Source: a virus. From it: DNA of 20,185 nucleotides. Under the pieces are notes generated by a model. The model did no database searches, was not told the DNA's origin, and worked only from the letters and a program-made list of their open reading frames with translations. Made by a program: the position numbers and the translations under genes. The stretch is from IMG/VR virus record IMGVR_UViG_3300042691_040621, positions 1 to 20,185 of that record; one strand, given 5' to 3'. Positions 2 to 20,185 of this stretch are shown piece by piece. Each line of letters begins with the position of its first letter. The stretch's first letter is position 1.

Positions 2-241
2 GTTAAGCAACTCAAGAATCGCTATAATGATCCAGGGACTAATCGTAGGTTTTTCCTTGGCATTGATCGCAGTAAAATGCGGCTTTATGATGTAGAGCAA
101 TCTGCACAGGAAGATCTACTGGATGGTCCAAAGACTAAGTCAGTATTTGATAACTCTAAGTTTGGCTCTGAAGATACAGAAAGAAATCTACCAAAGTCAA
201 AGTTTACTTTTAACAAAGAAGCATTTGCGGGGTTTAAATGA
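2..241 (+). CDS. Replicative DNA helicase, gp41/DnaB-like (C-terminal end only)
   Basis: The frame is open from the window edge to TGA at 239-241 and gives the last 79 residues of a longer protein. It reads VKQLKNRYNDPG...FFLGIDRSKMRLYDVEQSAQ, followed by a charged tail. The pattern of a basic NRY-D segment, an F-x-x-G-x-x-x-x-x-M-R-x-Y/F-D-V strand and a short acidic tail resembles the C-terminus of T4 gp41-type helicases, which unwind the fork 5'-3' and pair with the gp61 primase. A gp61-type primase is present at 11740, which fits. No Walker motifs are visible because the ATPase core lies outside the window, so the family call rests on the tail alone. It could be another RecA-fold replication protein. 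The stop overlaps the start of the next gene. Confidence 0.55.
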   Translation, partial: VKQLKNRYNDPGTNRRFFLGIDRSKMRLYDVEQSAQEDLLDGPKTKSVFDNSKFGSEDTERNLPKSKFTFNKEAFAGFK

Positions 242-456
242 TGAATTATAAGATTATTGATAGCAAGGATATTCCTACGTGTTTTGATGTAGTAGAAACT
301 GCTACTAATGTAATAGTGAAGACTTTTCCACTGTATCAAGATGCTAGGAAGTTCTTAAGGCATCTTAACCTTGGTGGTGCATTTGACGGTTGGACTCCAA
401 TGTTTATGGTAAAAAAATTTCCTATTCCTAAGGAGAAAGTTGCTCCGACTGTATAA
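238..456 (+). CDS. Small hypothetical phage protein (72 aa)
   Basis: I do not recognise this protein. It starts with two consecutive ATG codons, and the first overlaps the TGA of the helicase gene (238-241), a typical coupled junction. The product is 72 residues, soluble-looking, with no signal peptide or membrane segment. It has a likely alpha/beta content, with a YKIIDSKDIPTCFDVVET strand region followed by an FPLYQDARKFLRHL helix and a W-containing C-terminus. It reads like an immunity- or modulator-sized cytosolic protein. Its stop codon lies within the late promoter box at 452-459, so it closes the helicase transcription unit. Confidence 0.6.
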   Translation: MMNYKIIDSKDIPTCFDVVETATNVIVKTFPLYQDARKFLRHLNLGGAFDGWTPMFMVKKFPIPKEKVAPTV

Positions 457-459
457 ATA
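452..459 (+). promoter_or_regulatory. T4-type late promoter box, upstream of the ncRNA
   Basis: This is an exact TATAAATA octamer, the single conserved element of T4-family late promoters read by a gp55-type sigma factor. Initiation about six bases downstream would start RNA near 465-466, just before the first hairpin at 469. No coding gene follows before the terminator at 588-615, so this promoter appears to serve the RNA. The octamer overlaps the stop codon of the preceding gene. Confidence 0.65.
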
Positions 460-464
460 ATAAC

Positions 465-615
465 AGTTCCGCTCTCATGGAGCGGCAATGCAACACGTTT
501 GTGCTGCAGCACAAGTGGCAAGCTGATATATCAGGAATGGAATTGACAGGATAAACGGTGGGGTTCCGCCTGTCCATGTTGCATATGAAGGCGAGTCGAA
601 AGGCTCGCCTTTTTT
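465..615 (+). ncRNA. Candidate structured phage small RNA
   Basis: The 187-base gap between genes can fold almost throughout. H1 pairs 469-474 with 480-485 (CCGCTC/GAGCGG). An 8-bp closing stem pairs 488-495 with 577-584 (ATGCAACA/TGTTGCAT). Inside it are H2, 496-504 with 509-517, a 9-bp stem with two G-U pairs and a TGCA loop; H3, 523-526 with 531-534; and H4, 545-550 with 569-574 (GACAGG/CCTGTC) with an inner CGG/CCG stem. The closing stem and H2-H4 make a four-way junction. An intrinsic terminator follows at once, and a late promoter box precedes it by the right distance. I match it to no RNA family: there is no tRNA T-loop and no tmRNA tag or acceptor end. A 25-codon frame at 477-554 lies inside it without a ribosome binding site. 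The boundaries are predicted. Confidence 0.6.
588..615 (+). terminator. Intrinsic (rho-independent) terminator
   Basis: AAGGCGAG (588-595) pairs with CTCGCCTT (604-611). Within it a U-G pair and a C-G pair close a GAAA tetraloop at 598-601. A run of six T (610-615) follows. This is a strong, textbook-shaped terminator, and it ends the structured RNA before the next late promoter at 618. Confidence 0.9.
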
Positions 616-617
616 AT

Positions 618-625
618 TATAAATA
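618..625 (+). promoter_or_regulatory. T4-type late promoter box, upstream of the nuclease-like gene
   Basis: This exact TATAAATA lies three bases after the terminator's T-run and 18 bases before the ATG at 644. The short leader contains an AAAAGG ribosome binding site. The terminator followed directly by a late box insulates the downstream late cluster from the RNA gene. Confidence 0.7.
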
Positions 626-643
626 TGTATAAAAAGGCATGAT

Positions 644-1630
644 ATGACCGAACCTCTCTATTTAAATTTAAAAAAAGTATATCCTAATGTGAAGTTTGAT
701 TATATGCCAAGATTAAGTTCTGGTAATAAAAAGCTTTATTCAATTAGAGGTATTGATAAGAATAGAGAAGAAGCTTTTAAAAAATTACAACAATTTTTAA
801 GCGATCTTAAGGTATCATATGAAATAAAAGAATCTAGAACAGTATCTAAAAACTTTCCGTACGTTATATCAATTAACTTCAAGAATACGCAATATCAATA
901 TACTACTAAGCCCGATATGGCCGGAAGAGTTAGCTCTGGCAGTGGTGCACAAGATAAATTTGCAGAGTTTGTTAAGTTGTTTGGTGCTACTAACGTTAAT
1001 ACTGCTAAAGTTGGATCGCAGGTTGCTGATGTTTCTTTTAATATTGGTGGCGTAACAGAAAATGCAGAAATTAAAAACTCTAGCAGCTTAACTCAGATAA
1101 ATGCATTTGATATTACAGTATATAGACAAGATAAAAAATCTTCAGCTTCTAAAGATCTTTCATTTGTTAATGACTTAATACAGGCCTTTAAAGGTTACCC
1201 TACATTAGAAGCTTATATTGATTATCTTCGTCAGAGTGATACTTCTATTGGATATTCTGGTGATCCTGGTGTAAAGAATAAGAGTGGAAATTTGCCAACA
1301 AGATATTTTAAATTTACAGATAGTCTTGATAAAGCAACTAATACTCTAAAATCTCACTGGAATAAAGATGATTATTTTGTTATAGTAAATGGCAATAAGT
1401 TTACTATCTTTAACACAAATAAACAGGGCGCTCTTGCAAGTGTTATTGAAAGATTAACTGGAACAACAATTCCTATATTCAGTACACTCAATCTTAAAGA
1501 AATAAGTTTTAAAACTTATGGTGGAACTAGACCCGGTACTATAAGAATGCAATTATCTATCAGCGTTGCTTCTACTACTTCTATAGATTACAATCAATCT
1601 TTGACTGATAAATTAAAGATAAATATTTAA
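644..1630 (+). CDS. Hypothetical phage protein with possible PD-(D/E)XK nuclease core
   Basis: This is a 328-residue soluble protein without signal peptide or membrane segments. The start at 644 follows an AAAAGG site; an ATG at 639 stops after two codons. The middle contains a segment compatible with the PD-(D/E)XK nuclease core: an upstream helix with glutamate near residues 106-110, D129 in a beta strand (VADVSFNIGG), then a strand with E142-I-K144 (AEIKN). A Gly/Ser-rich stretch (residues 94-101) precedes it. The N-terminal 75 residues look like a small alpha/beta domain, and the C-terminal third is beta-rich and low in charge. It is first in a late cluster with proteins that appear to be packaged in the capsid, so a virion-linked or DNA-processing nuclease is possible. 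The assignment rests on a short motif and is tentative. Confidence 0.65.
   Translation: MTEPLYLNLKKVYPNVKFDYMPRLSSGNKKLYSIRGIDKNREEAFKKLQQFLSDLKVSYEIKESRTVSKNFPYVISINFKNTQYQYTTKPDMAGRVSSGSGAQDKFAEFVKLFGATNVNTAKVGSQVADVSFNIGGVTENAEIKNSSSLTQINAFDITVYRQDKKSSASKDLSFVNDLIQAFKGYPTLEAYIDYLRQSDTSIGYSGDPGVKNKSGNLPTRYFKFTDSLDKATNTLKSHWNKDDYFVIVNGNKFTIFNTNKQGALASVIERLTGTTIPIFSTLNLKEISFKTYGGTRPGTIRMQLSISVASTTSIDYNQSLTDKLKINI
1618..1625 (+). promoter_or_regulatory. Late promoter-like box (GATAAATA variant)
   Basis: GATAAATA differs from the T4 late consensus only at the first base. It sits over the end of the upstream gene, 22 bases before the ATG at 1648. The surrounding 14-mer AGATAAATATTTAA recurs exactly at 5818-5831, again at a gene end but in another reading frame, which points to selection on the DNA rather than the protein. 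Confidence 0.45.
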
Positions 1631-15359: not shown

Positions 15360-15797
15360 ATGAAGAAGATAGCGTTACTAATATGCTTATTTTCTTCTGC
15401 TTCTTATGCAAGTGAACTGAGTTTTGGGTTTAAAAACCCATCTTTTTCTGGTGTCGGCTATTCGTCTCATGTCTTAACTATTGATAACCTTGAACAAACA
15501 AGGAAGCAGAAGATAATAGAAGACAAGAAAACGGAAGCAGCCAAAGCTGCAGCTGATGCCAAGAATACTAACTTGGCTAAGTTCTTAAATAATCTTGAAA
15601 GTAGAATCTACGCAACGATATCACAAAATATCGCTGCTGAGTTATTCAAAGAAGGCGGAGCAACTACAGGATCTTTCGACATTGGTGGGAATAATTTACA
15701 ATGGTCATCTGATGGAAGTACTATAACATTAAGAATTACTGATCCCGGTGGTAGTGTTACGCAGGTAGTAGTACCATACGGGAGTTTAGCATGGTAA
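15360..15797 (+). CDS. csgF: Curli assembly protein CsgF
   Basis: CsgF sits on the outer face of the CsgG pore and passes the curli subunit to the cell surface. The 145-residue product has a signal peptide (KKIALLICLFSSASYA, cut near residue 18), then ELSFGFKNPSFSG (19-31), the conserved F-(R/K)-N-P-x-F motif that plugs into CsgG. A helix with a Lys/Ala-rich run comes next, and a beta-rich end (residues 105-143). E. coli CsgF has 138 residues, so length and order match. It is the first gene under the late box and overlaps csgG by seven bases. I see no truncation. Confidence 0.88.
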   Translation: MKKIALLICLFSSASYASELSFGFKNPSFSGVGYSSHVLTIDNLEQTRKQKIIEDKKTEAAKAAADAKNTNLAKFLNNLESRIYATISQNIAAELFKEGGATTGSFDIGGNNLQWSSDGSTITLRITDPGGSVTQVVVPYGSLAW

Positions 15798-16612
15798 AGT
15801 ATGCATTTTTAATGGTTTGTGCTTTGGCATTAGTCGGTTGTACAGGTAGTAAGATTACATCTAGTAGAGATCTAGAAAGCCAAGTAGATAAGGCAGAAGT
15901 AATTACTACAAAAAGATTCAACGAACTCATAAATATGCCTGCTGTTAGTAGTGATCCTATACCAGTAGCTGTATATAAATTTTCTGATATGAGTGGACAG
16001 AGAAAACCATCTAGCAATTATGCTAGTTTGAGTTCAGCTGTTACACAGGGTGGAGAAGTTATTTTAATAAAAGCTTTACAGGATGCTTCAAAGGGTAAAT
16101 TCTTTAAGCCTATTGAAAGAGTTAGTCTTGATAATCTTGTAAAAGAAAGACAACTCATCAGAAGTCAACGTGAAGTTTATGAAAAAGAAGAAGCTAAACC
16201 ATTAACACCCCTTATTGTTGCAGGTATAATGATAGAGGGTGGTATAGTTGGTTATGATAGTAATATTGCAACTGGTGGAATAGGTGCTCGTTATCTTGGT
16301 CTTGGTGCTCAACAAGAGTATCGTAAAGATGAAGTAACTGTGATGCTAAGACTTATATCAATAAGCACTGGTGAGATATTAATATCAAGTGGTGTAACTA
16401 AAACAATTTATAGTACTGGTGTAAGTGCTAATATATTTAAGTTTGTTGATGCTGGTACAAGATCTGTTGAGTTAGAAGCTGGAACTTCTATAAATGAGCC
16501 AACTACTTATGCAGTAAGACTAGCTATTGAAACTGCAGTAGTTGATATAATAAAGCAAGGTGCTCAGAAGAAATTATGGAAGTATAAAGAAACAGGGAAA
16601 AAAGGAAAATAA
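15791..16612 (+). CDS. csgG: Curli secretion channel CsgG (outer-membrane lipoprotein)
   Basis: CsgG forms a nonameric 36-strand outer-membrane pore that exports unfolded curli subunits. The 273-residue product starts with a lipoprotein signal: hydrophobic residues 5-15 and lipobox L14-V15-G16-C17, followed by Thr, a non-retention residue, so outer-membrane sorting is expected. The rest follows the CsgG fold: a VAVYKFSDMSGQRKPSSNYAS segment (about 59-79), FKPIERVSLDNLVKERQLI (104-122), a TPLIVAGIMIEGGIVGYDSN region (138-157) and VMLRLISISTGEIL with its C-terminal helix. Length equals the E. coli precursor. It is coupled to csgF by overlap, and a substrate-like curlin follows three bases later. 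Confidence 0.9.
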   Translation: MVKYAFLMVCALALVGCTGSKITSSRDLESQVDKAEVITTKRFNELINMPAVSSDPIPVAVYKFSDMSGQRKPSSNYASLSSAVTQGGEVILIKALQDASKGKFFKPIERVSLDNLVKERQLIRSQREVYEKEEAKPLTPLIVAGIMIEGGIVGYDSNIATGGIGARYLGLGAQQEYRKDEVTVMLRLISISTGEILISSGVTKTIYSTGVSANIFKFVDAGTRSVELEAGTSINEPTTYAVRLAIETAVVDIIKQGAQKKLWKYKETGKKGK

Positions 16613-16615
16613 GAA

Positions 16616-17299
16616 ATGAAAAAACTCACAAGAATGATGACATTTATATCATTCTTGGTTATGTCTGGTTATGTAAATGCGGCAAACTTAATCTATATGG
16701 ACCAGATAGGTGATGGTTCTACAATAAACATCACACAAACGGGTGCAGGAAACGCAATTGGTACATCAGGTGTTAAGTCAACTTTTACTGGTGACAATAA
16801 CACAGTGACAATTGAACAAATTGGAAACAACAACGTAACTAATATGACTGTTAGTGGTGATGGTGCCACTATATCTTCTATTATTAATGGTAGTTCAAAC
16901 ATACTAAACTTAGAGTGTGGTGCTAATGGCGGATCTTGCGGACCATCAACTATAACTAAAACAATTACGGGCGATGGTAACCAAGTAACACAATCTACAG
17001 ATACATTAACTAATACAACTGTTACGATTCAATCAGATAATAACCAAGTAAATGTTACAAGTACTTCAACGGCAGTTGCTGGTACTAAGAACACAGTTGA
17101 TATCTCTGGTGGTAGTGGTAACATAGTTGATGTTGTGCAGGCTGGTACTGCTTCAACTGTTGGTCATGAAGTTGATTTAACAATAAATGGTGCTTTAAAT
17201 ACCATTGACTTTAGACAGGGTGGAGCAGTTGATTCTAAGATCGTTACAACTATTACTGGTTCTAGCAACGCCGTTACTATTAAGTCCAACCACAACTAA
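16616..17299 (+). CDS. Secreted curlin-repeat protein (candidate CsgG substrate)
   Basis: This 227-residue protein has a signal peptide ending near A22-A23 (SGYVNA-A). It is followed by imperfect repeats of the curlin type, S/D-x-N-x-(V/I)-x-I-x-Q-x-G-x-x-N, for example DGSTINITQTGAGN (33-46), GDNNTVTIEQIGNNN (59-73) and the blocks at about 138-152 and 165-180. These build the beta-helical rungs of curli amyloid. The composition is Thr/Asn/Gly/Ser-rich with almost no charged residues, as in CsgA. Two cysteines, C101 and C108, lie in one turn, unlike CsgA. It is longer than CsgA (151 residues). Its last 95 bases overlap the next gene in another frame. No CsgC or CsgE is visible, so export may use host factors. 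Confidence 0.82.
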   Translation: MKKLTRMMTFISFLVMSGYVNAANLIYMDQIGDGSTINITQTGAGNAIGTSGVKSTFTGDNNTVTIEQIGNNNVTNMTVSGDGATISSIINGSSNILNLECGANGGSCGPSTITKTITGDGNQVTQSTDTLTNTTVTIQSDNNQVNVTSTSTAVAGTKNTVDISGGSGNIVDVVQAGTASTVGHEVDLTINGALNTIDFRQGGAVDSKIVTTITGSSNAVTIKSNHN

Positions 17300-18338
17300 T
17301 GCTGCGGTTGGTGAAGTAACAGAACAATCTGGACCTACAGAGATAAAAAGACAGTCGACTGTTATACCCAGCGCTTTGCAGTTTGGTGTAGAGATGCAAG
17401 ATATCATCACTACAGCTAATGCAAAGGCTGGGATAACTTTTAAAGATGATACACGAGTCCAAATAACTGAACATAGTAAACTAGTAATTGATAACTTTGT
17501 TTATGATGGTGAAAAGAAAACCGGTAAACTTGGTATCAAGATGGCTCTTGGTACAATCAAGTATGCATCTGGTCAGATAGCAAAAAATGACCCACAACAG
17601 GTTGTAGTTACAACACCAACTGCAACTATTGGCGTTAGAGGTACTGACTTTTCAAGCACAGTTGATGAATTGGGAAGATCACAGATCATATTGTTGCCTT
17701 CATGTCCTGAAGGTTGGAAAGATATACAAAAAGACTGTGTGACTGGTAAAATTATAGTATCTTCTGCTATGGGAACAGTTTTACTAACTAAACCTTTTGA
17801 ATCTACTACAGTTGATACTGGATTTACGAGACCATCACCATCTGCAATATTAAATCTTGATCTTAATCAGATTAATAATCTTATTATTGTTACACCGCCT
17901 AAAATTTCAGAAAACAGCGAAAGAGTTTTAGAAAGAAGAGGATTCAACTTTTTAGATGAAGATTTTTTAGGTAAAGATCATCTTAAGTTTACTGAACTTG
18001 ATAGAGACTTTCTAAAAGAATTTAATAAATTAGATAAAGATTTCTTAGGAACAGATTATCTTTATAATTTCTTAGATGTAGCTTCTTCACAGCTCTTATC
18101 AGATGAGTTAGCTGAGTTTAATGCTTTATTACCTAAGTTTAATCCTACAAGTGGATTAAAGTTTTTTGTTGAGAATGAGATGCTAACTCTTTACAGAGAA
18201 ACAGTAAATAGCTATGCTGAACTCACTATGTCACAGTATAGATCTGGCACTCTTAAAATAACACAAGAAGGCCTTGAAGTTAAACAAATCATAAACAATA
18301 CGGGTACTACCGTAATTAACATAAAGCAATCAGAATGA
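17205..18338 (+). CDS. FecR-domain periplasmic protein
   Basis: The only usable starts are TTG 17205 and TTG 17229, since an in-frame TAA lies at 17196. Both give a Leu-rich signal peptide (LQLLLVLATPLLL, cut near TNA-A at residues 32-34), which is encoded over the 3' end of the curlin gene in another frame. The mature part is a FecR beta domain: AGITFKDDTRVQI (75-87) to VVVTTPTATIGVRGTDF (133-149), the latter being its hallmark. In FecR proteins this domain is periplasmic and senses or docks; here there is no N-terminal cytosolic sigma-regulator tail. C167 and C178 may pair. Residues 245-290 repeat an LDxDFL pattern. The C-terminus, NNTGTTVINIKQ, resembles a curlin rung. In bacteria FecR-domain proteins often neighbour CHASE2 cyclases, as here. 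Confidence 0.8.
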   Translation: MTLDRVEQLILRSLQLLLVLATPLLLSPTTTNAAVGEVTEQSGPTEIKRQSTVIPSALQFGVEMQDIITTANAKAGITFKDDTRVQITEHSKLVIDNFVYDGEKKTGKLGIKMALGTIKYASGQIAKNDPQQVVVTTPTATIGVRGTDFSSTVDELGRSQIILLPSCPEGWKDIQKDCVTGKIIVSSAMGTVLLTKPFESTTVDTGFTRPSPSAILNLDLNQINNLIIVTPPKISENSERVLERRGFNFLDEDFLGKDHLKFTELDRDFLKEFNKLDKDFLGTDYLYNFLDVASSQLLSDELAEFNALLPKFNPTSGLKFFVENEMLTLYRETVNSYAELTMSQYRSGTLKITQEGLEVKQIINNTGTTVINIKQSE

Positions 18339-18616
18339 AGATATTATTAGCACTCTTATTCATGACTTCATCAGTGTTTTCTCAGACGGTACCATCACCC
18401 GTCATGAATAATGCTACCGTGAATTTAACAGGAAACTTTAATAATGTTATTATTAATCAATCTGGTACTGGTTATCACACTGCTACTATTAATAGTACTG
18501 GCGATAACATCCCCATCAACATCACGCAATCCGGTAATACCAATAAGTCTATATCAATCGATATTCATTGCACTAGCAATTGTGCAGCTAATCCTTATAT
18601 TATTAATCAATATTGA
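18335..18616 (+). CDS. Small secreted curlin-repeat protein (second fibre-like subunit)
   Basis: This 93-residue product has a signal peptide (KILLALLFMTSSVFSQ, cut near S16-Q17) and a start overlapping the FecR stop by four bases (ATGA). The mature 76 residues carry two curlin-like rungs, GNFNNVIINQSGTGYHT (33-49) and STGDNIPINITQSGNTN (54-70), then a tail with C79 and C83 (HCTSNC) and a closing YIINQY. It is far smaller than CsgA and has a Cys pair like its larger neighbour. It may be a nucleator, in the role of CsgB, or a cap for the fibre. It is not a fragment of the first curlin, because it has its own signal sequence. Confidence 0.72.
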   Translation: MKILLALLFMTSSVFSQTVPSPVMNNATVNLTGNFNNVIINQSGTGYHTATINSTGDNIPINITQSGNTNKSISIDIHCTSNCAANPYIINQY

Positions 18617-18618
18617 AC

Positions 18619-20185
18619 ATGGAAACCTTAGGAAAAATATTAACCAGCGTATGGGCAGTTGTTATCTCAGCGATAATGCTATTGGCCGTATATGCTTATA
18701 ATCCTAACCCTGCACAAGTACTACAATTAAAAACATTTGATTACTTAATCAACACATTAGAAGATAAAAAATCTGAAGAGATAGTAATTGTTGATTTTGG
18801 TGAAAAATCAGTTAAGCAATTTGGTCAGTGGCCTTTTGATCGTAGAGATATAGCAAAAACAATAAAAAAGTTGAAAGAAAATGGCGCTGCTGTAATAGTT
18901 ATGCCAATACTTTTCTCTGAAAAAGATAGAGCAGGAGGAGATAATGAACTTACAAAATCTTTGGACGGTGTTGTCATCGCTCAAACTCCTACTACTCAAG
19001 ATGTACCACCTGATGCAGTACGTCGTGGGTTTGCTTCTATCGGTCCTGTTAACCCTGTCGATTATGTTTTTCGTTGGAGGGGCGGCATACGTCCTTTACG
19101 TGAGCATGCCGAAGTGGCCGGAGGTGTTGGAGTGGTCGCCACCGTTAGTGAAGTGGATGGTGTGGTTCGTCGTATCCCTCTACTTGTCAATATTGCTGGG
19201 GGTCTCTACCCTTCTGTACCTTTGGAAACGATTAGAGTCGCCGCTGGCGATCCTAGTTACCAAATTAAAACAAGTGAGATCGGACCAGAGTTCGTCCGTG
19301 TACCTGCTTTCGCGCCGATACAGACTGATGAAAGAGGAAGAATCTGGGCGACATGGAACACAAAGTTCGAAAGAATAGAAGCTACAGAGATTGATAATCG
19401 TGTTGAAGGCAAAATAGTAGTATTAGGCATTTCAATTGAGGGTGTTGGTGGTATAATAGCTACACCAGTCGGAGAGAAGTGGGCTCATGATATACAAGCG
19501 AGCGCTCTACAAACTCTTATAGATGGTACATCTATTTCACGCGCTTCTCATGCGCAAATAACAGAAGGACTACTATTAGCAGGAATATTACTGATAATGC
19601 TTGTCCTAGTACCACGACTGTCTGTGTTATGGACTGTTCCATTTTATGTTCTTTTTGTTACTATAATAAGTTATGGTTCATATTATTTATTTAAGTATAG
19701 CTTAGAACTGTGGAATCCTAGTTACATATTACTTGCTGGTTCTTTTGTTTATGGACACATACTATTTAATAATTTTGCAAGAGAATTTAGACTTAAACAA
19801 CAGATAAAGAAGCAATTTGGGACTTATCTCTCACCAGCTTTGGTAGAGAAGCTCCAGAAAAACCCGGAGTTATTGCAACTTGGTGGAGATACTAGAGAGT
19901 TATCAATCATGTTTACTGATGTTCGTGGGTTTACTACTATTAGCGAGCATTACGGAAGCGACGTTCAGGGACTAACTAAGATCATGAACCGTTATATGAC
20001 GGCTATGACTGCTAAGATCCTTGAGAATAATGGAACACTAGACAAATATATCGGCGATGCACAGATGGCATTTTGGAATGCACCACTCGATGATGCCGAC
20101 CATGCTAAGCACGCAGTTAAAACAGCATTGGAGATGTTAGATGATTTGGCCAGATTCAACGACGAAATCGCATCTGAAGGCGTAC
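18619..20185 (+). CDS. CHASE2-domain class III adenylate/guanylate cyclase (3' end cut)
   Basis: The frame opens two bases after the previous stop and stays open for 522 codons to the window edge. Residues 8-27 are a membrane helix. Residues 30-305 form a CHASE2 extracytoplasmic sensor, with FDYLI, WPFDRRDIA and the DGVVRRIPLLVNIAGGLYPS block (180-199). Three membrane helices follow (about 313-385), then a GTYLSPALVEKL linker (401-412) and the cyclase domain from about 426. D434 in MFTDVRGFTTISE and D480 in DKYIGDA are the two metal-binding aspartates, and K476 is the lysine usual in ATP-specific cyclases. The remaining transition-state Asn/Arg lie beyond the window. It would turn an envelope signal into cAMP (or cGMP). 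Bases 19021-19320 are about 52% G+C, far above the flanks. Confidence 0.88.
   Translation, partial: METLGKILTSVWAVVISAIMLLAVYAYNPNPAQVLQLKTFDYLINTLEDKKSEEIVIVDFGEKSVKQFGQWPFDRRDIAKTIKKLKENGAAVIVMPILFSEKDRAGGDNELTKSLDGVVIAQTPTTQDVPPDAVRRGFASIGPVNPVDYVFRWRGGIRPLREHAEVAGGVGVVATVSEVDGVVRRIPLLVNIAGGLYPSVPLETIRVAAGDPSYQIKTSEIGPEFVRVPAFAPIQTDERGRIWATWNTKFERIEATEIDNRVEGKIVVLGISIEGVGGIIATPVGEKWAHDIQASALQTLIDGTSISRASHAQITEGLLLAGILLIMLVLVPRLSVLWTVPFYVLFVTIISYGSYYLFKYSLELWNPSYILLAGSFVYGHILFNNFAREFRLKQQIKKQFGTYLSPALVEKLQKNPELLQLGGDTRELSIMFTDVRGFTTISEHYGSDVQGLTKIMNRYMTAMTAKILENNGTLDKYIGDAQMAFWNAPLDDADHAKHAVKTALEMLDDLARFNDEIASEGV

Follow-up and report, generated by a model that had tools for sequence, protein, structure and literature searches.

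The stretch of DNA analysed here, referred to as the window, comprises 20,185 nucleotides of a virus record (IMG/VR IMGVR_UViG_3300042691_040621). Its proteins include the end of a gp41 helicase, a gp61-type primase and phage structural proteins, which identify it as DNA of a T4-like phage. Behind a conserved small ORF lies an intergenic region whose features are collected in Table 1, and positions 452-615 are very likely to hold a real stand-alone gene for a structured RNA. That this RNA is transcribed late is likely, and is inferred from sequence alone: the start at 466 was inferred from a distance of ~6 nt past the late box, and the end was placed in the T-run of the terminator.

Table 1. 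Features of the RNA locus and of the two flanking ORFs (window coordinates).
Feature	Position	Strand	Remarks
Conserved ~70-aa ORF (72 aa in the window) preceding the RNA	238-456	+	Served as homologue bait
Late promoter box TATAAATA, T4-type	452-459	+	Shares bases with the TAA stop codon of the 72-aa ORF ahead of it
Predicted RNA transcript, ~150 nt	466-615	+	Inferred from sequence, no transcript data
P0 hairpin, 469-475/479-485	469-485	+	Confined to the window's sub-clade
Core four-helix junction RNA	488-584	+	P1 closing stem 488-495/577-584 (8 bp) plus G497-C575
P2 hairpin, 499-504/509-514	499-514	+	Palindrome CTGCAG at the tip (504-509)
Junction strand GTGGCAAG	515-522	+	Family consensus GNGGC plus A, rarely T
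P3 hairpin, 523-526/531-534	523-534	+	Register and length vary
GGAA immediately ahead of P4	539-542	+	
P4 545-550/569-574, 5-nt purine-rich bulge 551-555, P4a 556-558/566-568	545-574	+	
Heptaloop TGGGGTT (UGGGGUU)	559-565	+	Invariant
Intrinsic terminator 587-597/602-612, GAAA loop 598-601, T-run to 615	587-615	+	
Second late box TATAAATA	618-625	+	For the next gene (ORF 644-1630)
Downstream 328-aa ORF, hypervariable slot	644-1630	+	Outside the RNA gene; no Pfam match

The same layout is found in the homologous loci. A late box lies 80-111 nt ahead of the heptaloop stem in all 59 distinct loci; among random 32-nt intervals taken from coding DNA nearby, the proportion with such a box is 0.7%. 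A terminator follows the RNA in each of the 59, a second late box stands behind the terminator in 57, and late box, RNA and terminator are on one strand at every locus. The criterion for a T4-type late unit, a TATAAATA-type box just 5' of the transcript, is met at 59/59 loci, with the start site being inferred; that for a stand-alone RNA (own promoter, own terminator and a separately promoted next gene) is met as far as sequence can tell. The criterion for a riboswitch or leader is not met: the downstream gene varies, and the terminator is separate from P1. Since the next gene is unrelated from phage to phage, while a leader would keep the gene that it regulates, the RNA is not a leader. The initial annotation had proposed a late box, an 8-bp closing stem, a GAAA terminator and a second late box, and all of these are present, the stem pair for pair. 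Its reading of an insulated, late-promoted stand-alone RNA is supported by this layout, by the unrelated downstream genes and by the covariation described below, with promoter and transcript still inferred from the sequence.

Gene order around the RNA is constant, running uvsX, gp41, small ORFs, the ~70-aa ORF, the RNA and a hypervariable gene, which is often followed by a HAD-like gene, a DUF6267 gene and a nucleotidyltransferase-like gene. Each genome-length contig, among them those of 164, 167, 162 and 173 kb, has a single copy of the RNA, which is predicted to be roughly 130-150 nt long across the group. The hypervariable slot after the RNA terminator (L104, L050, L072, L122 and others) holds many unrelated proteins of 240-640 aa with a late box of their own; those that were tested gave no Pfam matches, and the slot is possibly a site for host-interaction or counter-defence genes.

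Initial protein baits yielded four related intergenic regions, and with a motif built from these at least 119 stretches were retrieved from viral contigs. The first alignment was seeded with a pattern that contains the heptaloop, so that loop invariance in it proves nothing. Two further samples, which used the upstream ~70-aa protein as bait and ignored the RNA, are free of this bias. In the first of them the RNA lies directly downstream of the bait ORF in 79 of 80 loci; the second brought in highly divergent members as well as a lineage (L338-L349) that lacks the RNA. At locus L146 the ORF is followed by a bare terminator, with the RNA missing. Because L146 and the L338-L349 group keep the ORF without the RNA, the RNA is dispensable for some lineages. 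Among carriers, the identity of gp41 to that of L003 drops to 57%, which is as distant as cyanophage P-SSM2 or Melnitz; with divergence this deep, the RNA is probably old. At L036 (1309-1407) coding-like sequence has seemingly taken the place of the 5' half, with P4 and the terminator kept; this is possibly a decaying or recombined copy.

Folding of 464-615 yields -60.9 kcal/mol (z = -4.3), which none of 200 shuffles equalled, whereas the core alone, once the terminator and the additional 5' hairpin are removed, reaches a z of only -1.2. Single-sequence energy is weak evidence for this reason, and the case therefore rests on the homologues and their covariation. In a plain MAFFT alignment of 56 sequences, 88.7% of the cells of P1-P2-P3-P4-P4a are paired and 18 of 22 pairs change on both sides, with 224 compensatory cells as against 76 in shuffled and at most 62 in slid alignments. 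When 94 sequences are aligned to the model, 93.7% of cells are paired, 21 of the 22 pairs change on both sides, and compensatory cells number 505 (143 shuffled, at most 73 slid). The larger alignment leans towards the model; the MAFFT alignment does not. The four-helix junction fold of this RNA family is real, as shown by covariation. The initial annotation had seen a four-way-junction-like fold, for which compensatory change among homologous intergenic regions would be the check; the check is strongly positive and the fold held, with the exception of its fourth arm. The minimum-free-energy placement of that arm in the window is wrong, the family fold being P4 plus P4a as in Table 1.

All six modelled pairs of P1 change on both sides (98% paired), and the stem reaches outward past them, flank pairing being -4.09 kcal/mol with the own flanks and -2.62 +/- 0.19 kcal/mol with swapped ones. 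In P2, 4/4 modelled pairs change on both sides and 97.6% of cells are paired; its loop sequence is not conserved. P3, when held in one fixed register, is paired in 62% of cells; the summed hairpin energy of 82 distinct segments, a few of which extend past GGAA, is -233 against -119 +/- 11 for shuffles. P3 is a genuine hairpin that slides in register. P4 and P4a are paired in 99.8% and 99.6% of cells over the 94 sequences, and the P4a stem occurs as CGG/CCG, UGG/CCA, AGG/CCU, GGG/CCC, CUU/AAG, CUG/CAG and CAG/CUG. Throughout the helices, 80 G-U pair cells are tolerated. The P4 bulge tolerates insertions, since some homologues carry extra sequence or a hairpin there (L205, 2685-2806; L365, 2701-2818; L315, 2727-2846).

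The conserved bases are concentrated in unpaired positions. The loop UGGGGUU is present in 94/94 homologues, 38 of them found without use of the motif, and stays the same while the sequence of the P4a stem beneath it is fully exchanged. The G.GGC columns of the junction strand are invariant in the alignment of 56 and are retained in divergent homologues; so is the GGAA ahead of P4, the fifth base of which varies. An H-type pseudoknot between GGAA and UUCC was considered and rejected, because the strands do not covary: GGAA is constant and UUCC becomes UUAA, UUCA or UUCU (L316, L360, L313, L296). Comparison of the P4 loop by eye with CRISPR repeats and tmRNA showed no likeness that is conserved across the family.

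No match to any of the 4,227 families of Rfam 15 was obtained at the gathering cut-off for the window or for 10 homologous loci, in agreement with the earlier statement that the RNA belongs to no known class. A permissive Rfam search of 440-640 gave best matches far under the cut-off (for example 17.8 bits against 50). ARAGORN and Rfam found no tRNA or tmRNA at the locus, and there is no T-arm or acceptor end. BLAST of the window and of consensus RNA sequences against 50,697 phage records returned chance matches only, as did model searches of Melnitz-type loci, P-SSM2, DLP6, C48C1, AG-345-F15/O18, HTVC008M, T4 and S-RIM50. A strict core pattern had no match in 257 Gb of genome contigs; as only exact matches count there, a divergent cellular relative is not excluded. 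Phage-encoded stand-alone RNAs form a broad kind, to which this RNA is likely to add a new family. It remains possible that it was listed earlier in one of the large motif surveys (Weinberg 2010, Weinberg 2017), for example as Ocean-VI, since their supplements were outside the comparison.

Within that broad kind, the RNA resembles GOLLD and ROOL (PMC12286853) in being stand-alone and highly structured; these too are partly phage-borne and were found through covariation in metagenomes. They are several hundred nt long, whereas the RNA described here has a core of 110-140 nt plus a terminator and matches no such model. The pRNA of phi29 is likewise a short phage-encoded junction RNA. It is defined by loop-loop oligomerisation, in contrast with the present family, whose palindromic loop is not conserved; the pRNA criterion of a conserved self-complementary loop is not met, and T4-type packaging is not known to require an RNA. 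Covarying RNAs of T4-like marine phages, namely wcaG, manA, PhotoRC-II and glnA, have been described as 5'UTR or cis-regulatory elements (PMC2864571, PMC9004378, PMC9964418). The present RNA differs from them in its own terminator, the second late promoter behind it, its unrelated downstream genes and the absence of an Rfam match, and by the Rfam search none of the RNAs described in the literature for aquatic T4-like phages (wcaG, manA, PhotoRC-II, glnA and abiF) resembles it. T4 itself makes the stable RNAs C and D (species 1 and 2), small stand-alone RNAs without known function that lie in the tRNA cluster; the family model finds nothing in the T4 genome. Phage tmRNA and tRNA-like RNAs are separate genes in the same phages, while the locus itself has no tRNA or tmRNA match. 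Several RNA-bearing genome-length contigs encode a permuted two-piece tmRNA (L367, 19033-19467; L377, 18259-18647; L371, L382, L383), with tags such as ANDNAPFAMAVAA and ANDNSPIEMRLAA and ~25 tRNAs per contig. In two such contigs the tmRNA is of the permuted alpha-type; the Melnitz case indicates that tmRNA and tRNA content of this sort is no proof of an alphaproteobacterial host (PMC9004378).

In the reading that we prefer, transcription by the phage-modified polymerase would begin at the TATAAATA box late in infection and end at the intrinsic terminator. The ~150-nt product folds into the four-helix junction shown by covariation, in which the long P1 stem ties up the 5' end, and would then be a free, trans-acting molecule. 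By inference, it most likely works by offering one conserved partner the invariant UGGGGUU on P4a along with the conserved GGAA and GNGGCA junction strands. A single conserved partner fits because the stem under the loop varies freely among distant phages and the loop is constant. That the RNA acts in trans via this loop is an inference towards which we lean by a modest margin, and the explanation as a whole, down to this step, deserves no more than the same slight preference. No partner has been identified. AACCCCA, to which the loop is complementary, shows no enrichment in two genomes (11 occurrences where ~12 are expected from base composition, and 8 where ~15 are), and E. coli 16S, 23S and 5S rRNA contain no perfect complement of the heptamer. 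For these reasons a protein would be favoured over an mRNA, the chance that the partner is a protein being, on inference, slightly less than even. There is no known RNA-chaperone family among the neighbouring genes, and no significant fold match was obtained for the 70-aa protein encoded upstream. It is also possible that the invariant loop serves an internal tertiary contact instead.

The best surviving alternative, and a possible one, is that of a late antisense RNA whose UGGGGUU seed pairs with sites of the AACCCCA type in mRNAs of phage or host, or else with a different RNA, for instance the C-rich 3' end of a tRNA. An invariant, G-rich, single-stranded loop on a covarying stem does resemble a seed, and the layout is that of a stand-alone sRNA gene. 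Against this stand the lack of AACCCCA enrichment and of an rRNA complement just described; moreover, no further conserved single-stranded stretch would obviously extend the pairing.

It is unlikely that the RNA is mainly a cis-acting element, the protected 3' end of the uvsX-gp41-ORF70 transcript, with the late box merely adding late copies. In favour of this, the RNA always comes after one and the same operon, whose terminator forms its end. However, the late box found at the right distance in 59/59 loci would be needless for a 3'UTR element, P1 begins right behind the inferred 5' end and ties it up, and L146 has the ORF and a bare terminator without the RNA.

An assembly made of RNA only, in which loop contacts join the copies, either as a G-quadruplex of four UGGGGU strands or as P2 kissing, is very unlikely. 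The sequence r(UGGGGU) is a classic tetraplex former, which lends the idea some support, as does the 6-nt palindrome present in 38/94 P2 loops. On the other hand, 56/94 P2 loops have no such palindrome, a strict central-palindrome test is without significance (P = 0.12), and a G-quadruplex from hairpin loops is sterically unproven. The suggestion in the initial annotation that the palindromic loop of its second hairpin (here P2) allows dimer kissing found no support as a family-wide trait.

Slightly less probable still is a DNA element (a replication origin, recombination or packaging site, or cruciform) whose RNA-like look is incidental. The stretch is found once per genome in a fixed spot next to replication genes, as such an element might be, but the 80 tolerated G-U cells would be A-C mismatches on the opposite DNA strand, conservation falls on bases of the loop and junction that do not pair, and promoter, RNA and terminator are always co-stranded. 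A small peptide, which would have spoken against the original RNA reading, is all but excluded: although an ATG frame of at least 20 codons lies inside the core in 22/94 sequences, core lengths span all three values modulo 3, most frames are interrupted, and the changes are compensatory rather than codon-conserving.

To return to the proposed trans-acting RNA, stand-alone RNA genes with proven structure have seldom been described in T4-like phages, the known aquatic ones being mostly cis-regulators. This RNA is fixed in place across aquatic phages whose gp41 differs by up to ~43%, with the loop unchanged, which points to a strongly constrained partner. A bolder reading would see a new class of viral non-coding RNA, made late from one copy per genome, whose UGGGGUU binds a conserved factor of host or phage, or lets copies of the RNA assemble with one another; we regard this as possible rather than probable. 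If true, a large group of uncultured T4-like phages would have a dedicated RNA part for late infection, of which no counterpart was found in T4. The model, the alignment and the loop make the binding partner of the RNA directly testable.

Several other genes of the window are of interest in their own right. The DUF6267 (phrog_455) protein at 1648-2856 contains KYDGAP and FVAxKS motifs. Its structure was predicted with a pLDDT of 86.6, and the best structural alignments are to RNA ligases (Naegleria Rnl, Z 8.3; TbREL1, 7.6; Trl1, 7.5; T4 Rnl2, 7.2). It is likely to be an RNA-ligase-like nucleotidyltransferase, a model-based prediction that is not proved, as Foldseek alone gave no significant match for this protein. 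It is also present in Melnitz-type phages, which are without the RNA. The region 15360-18616 encodes CsgF and CsgG (clear Pfam matches), followed by a curlin-repeat protein at 16616-17299 (20.5 bits against a cut-off of 20.7) and a second small repeat protein at 18335-18616. These two repeat proteins are possibly CsgA/CsgB, which have been reported missing in pelagimyophages and Melnitz (PMC7029224, PMC9004378). This phage contig also encodes a FecR-domain protein (17205-18338) and a CHASE2-adenylate/guanylate cyclase protein (18613-20184).
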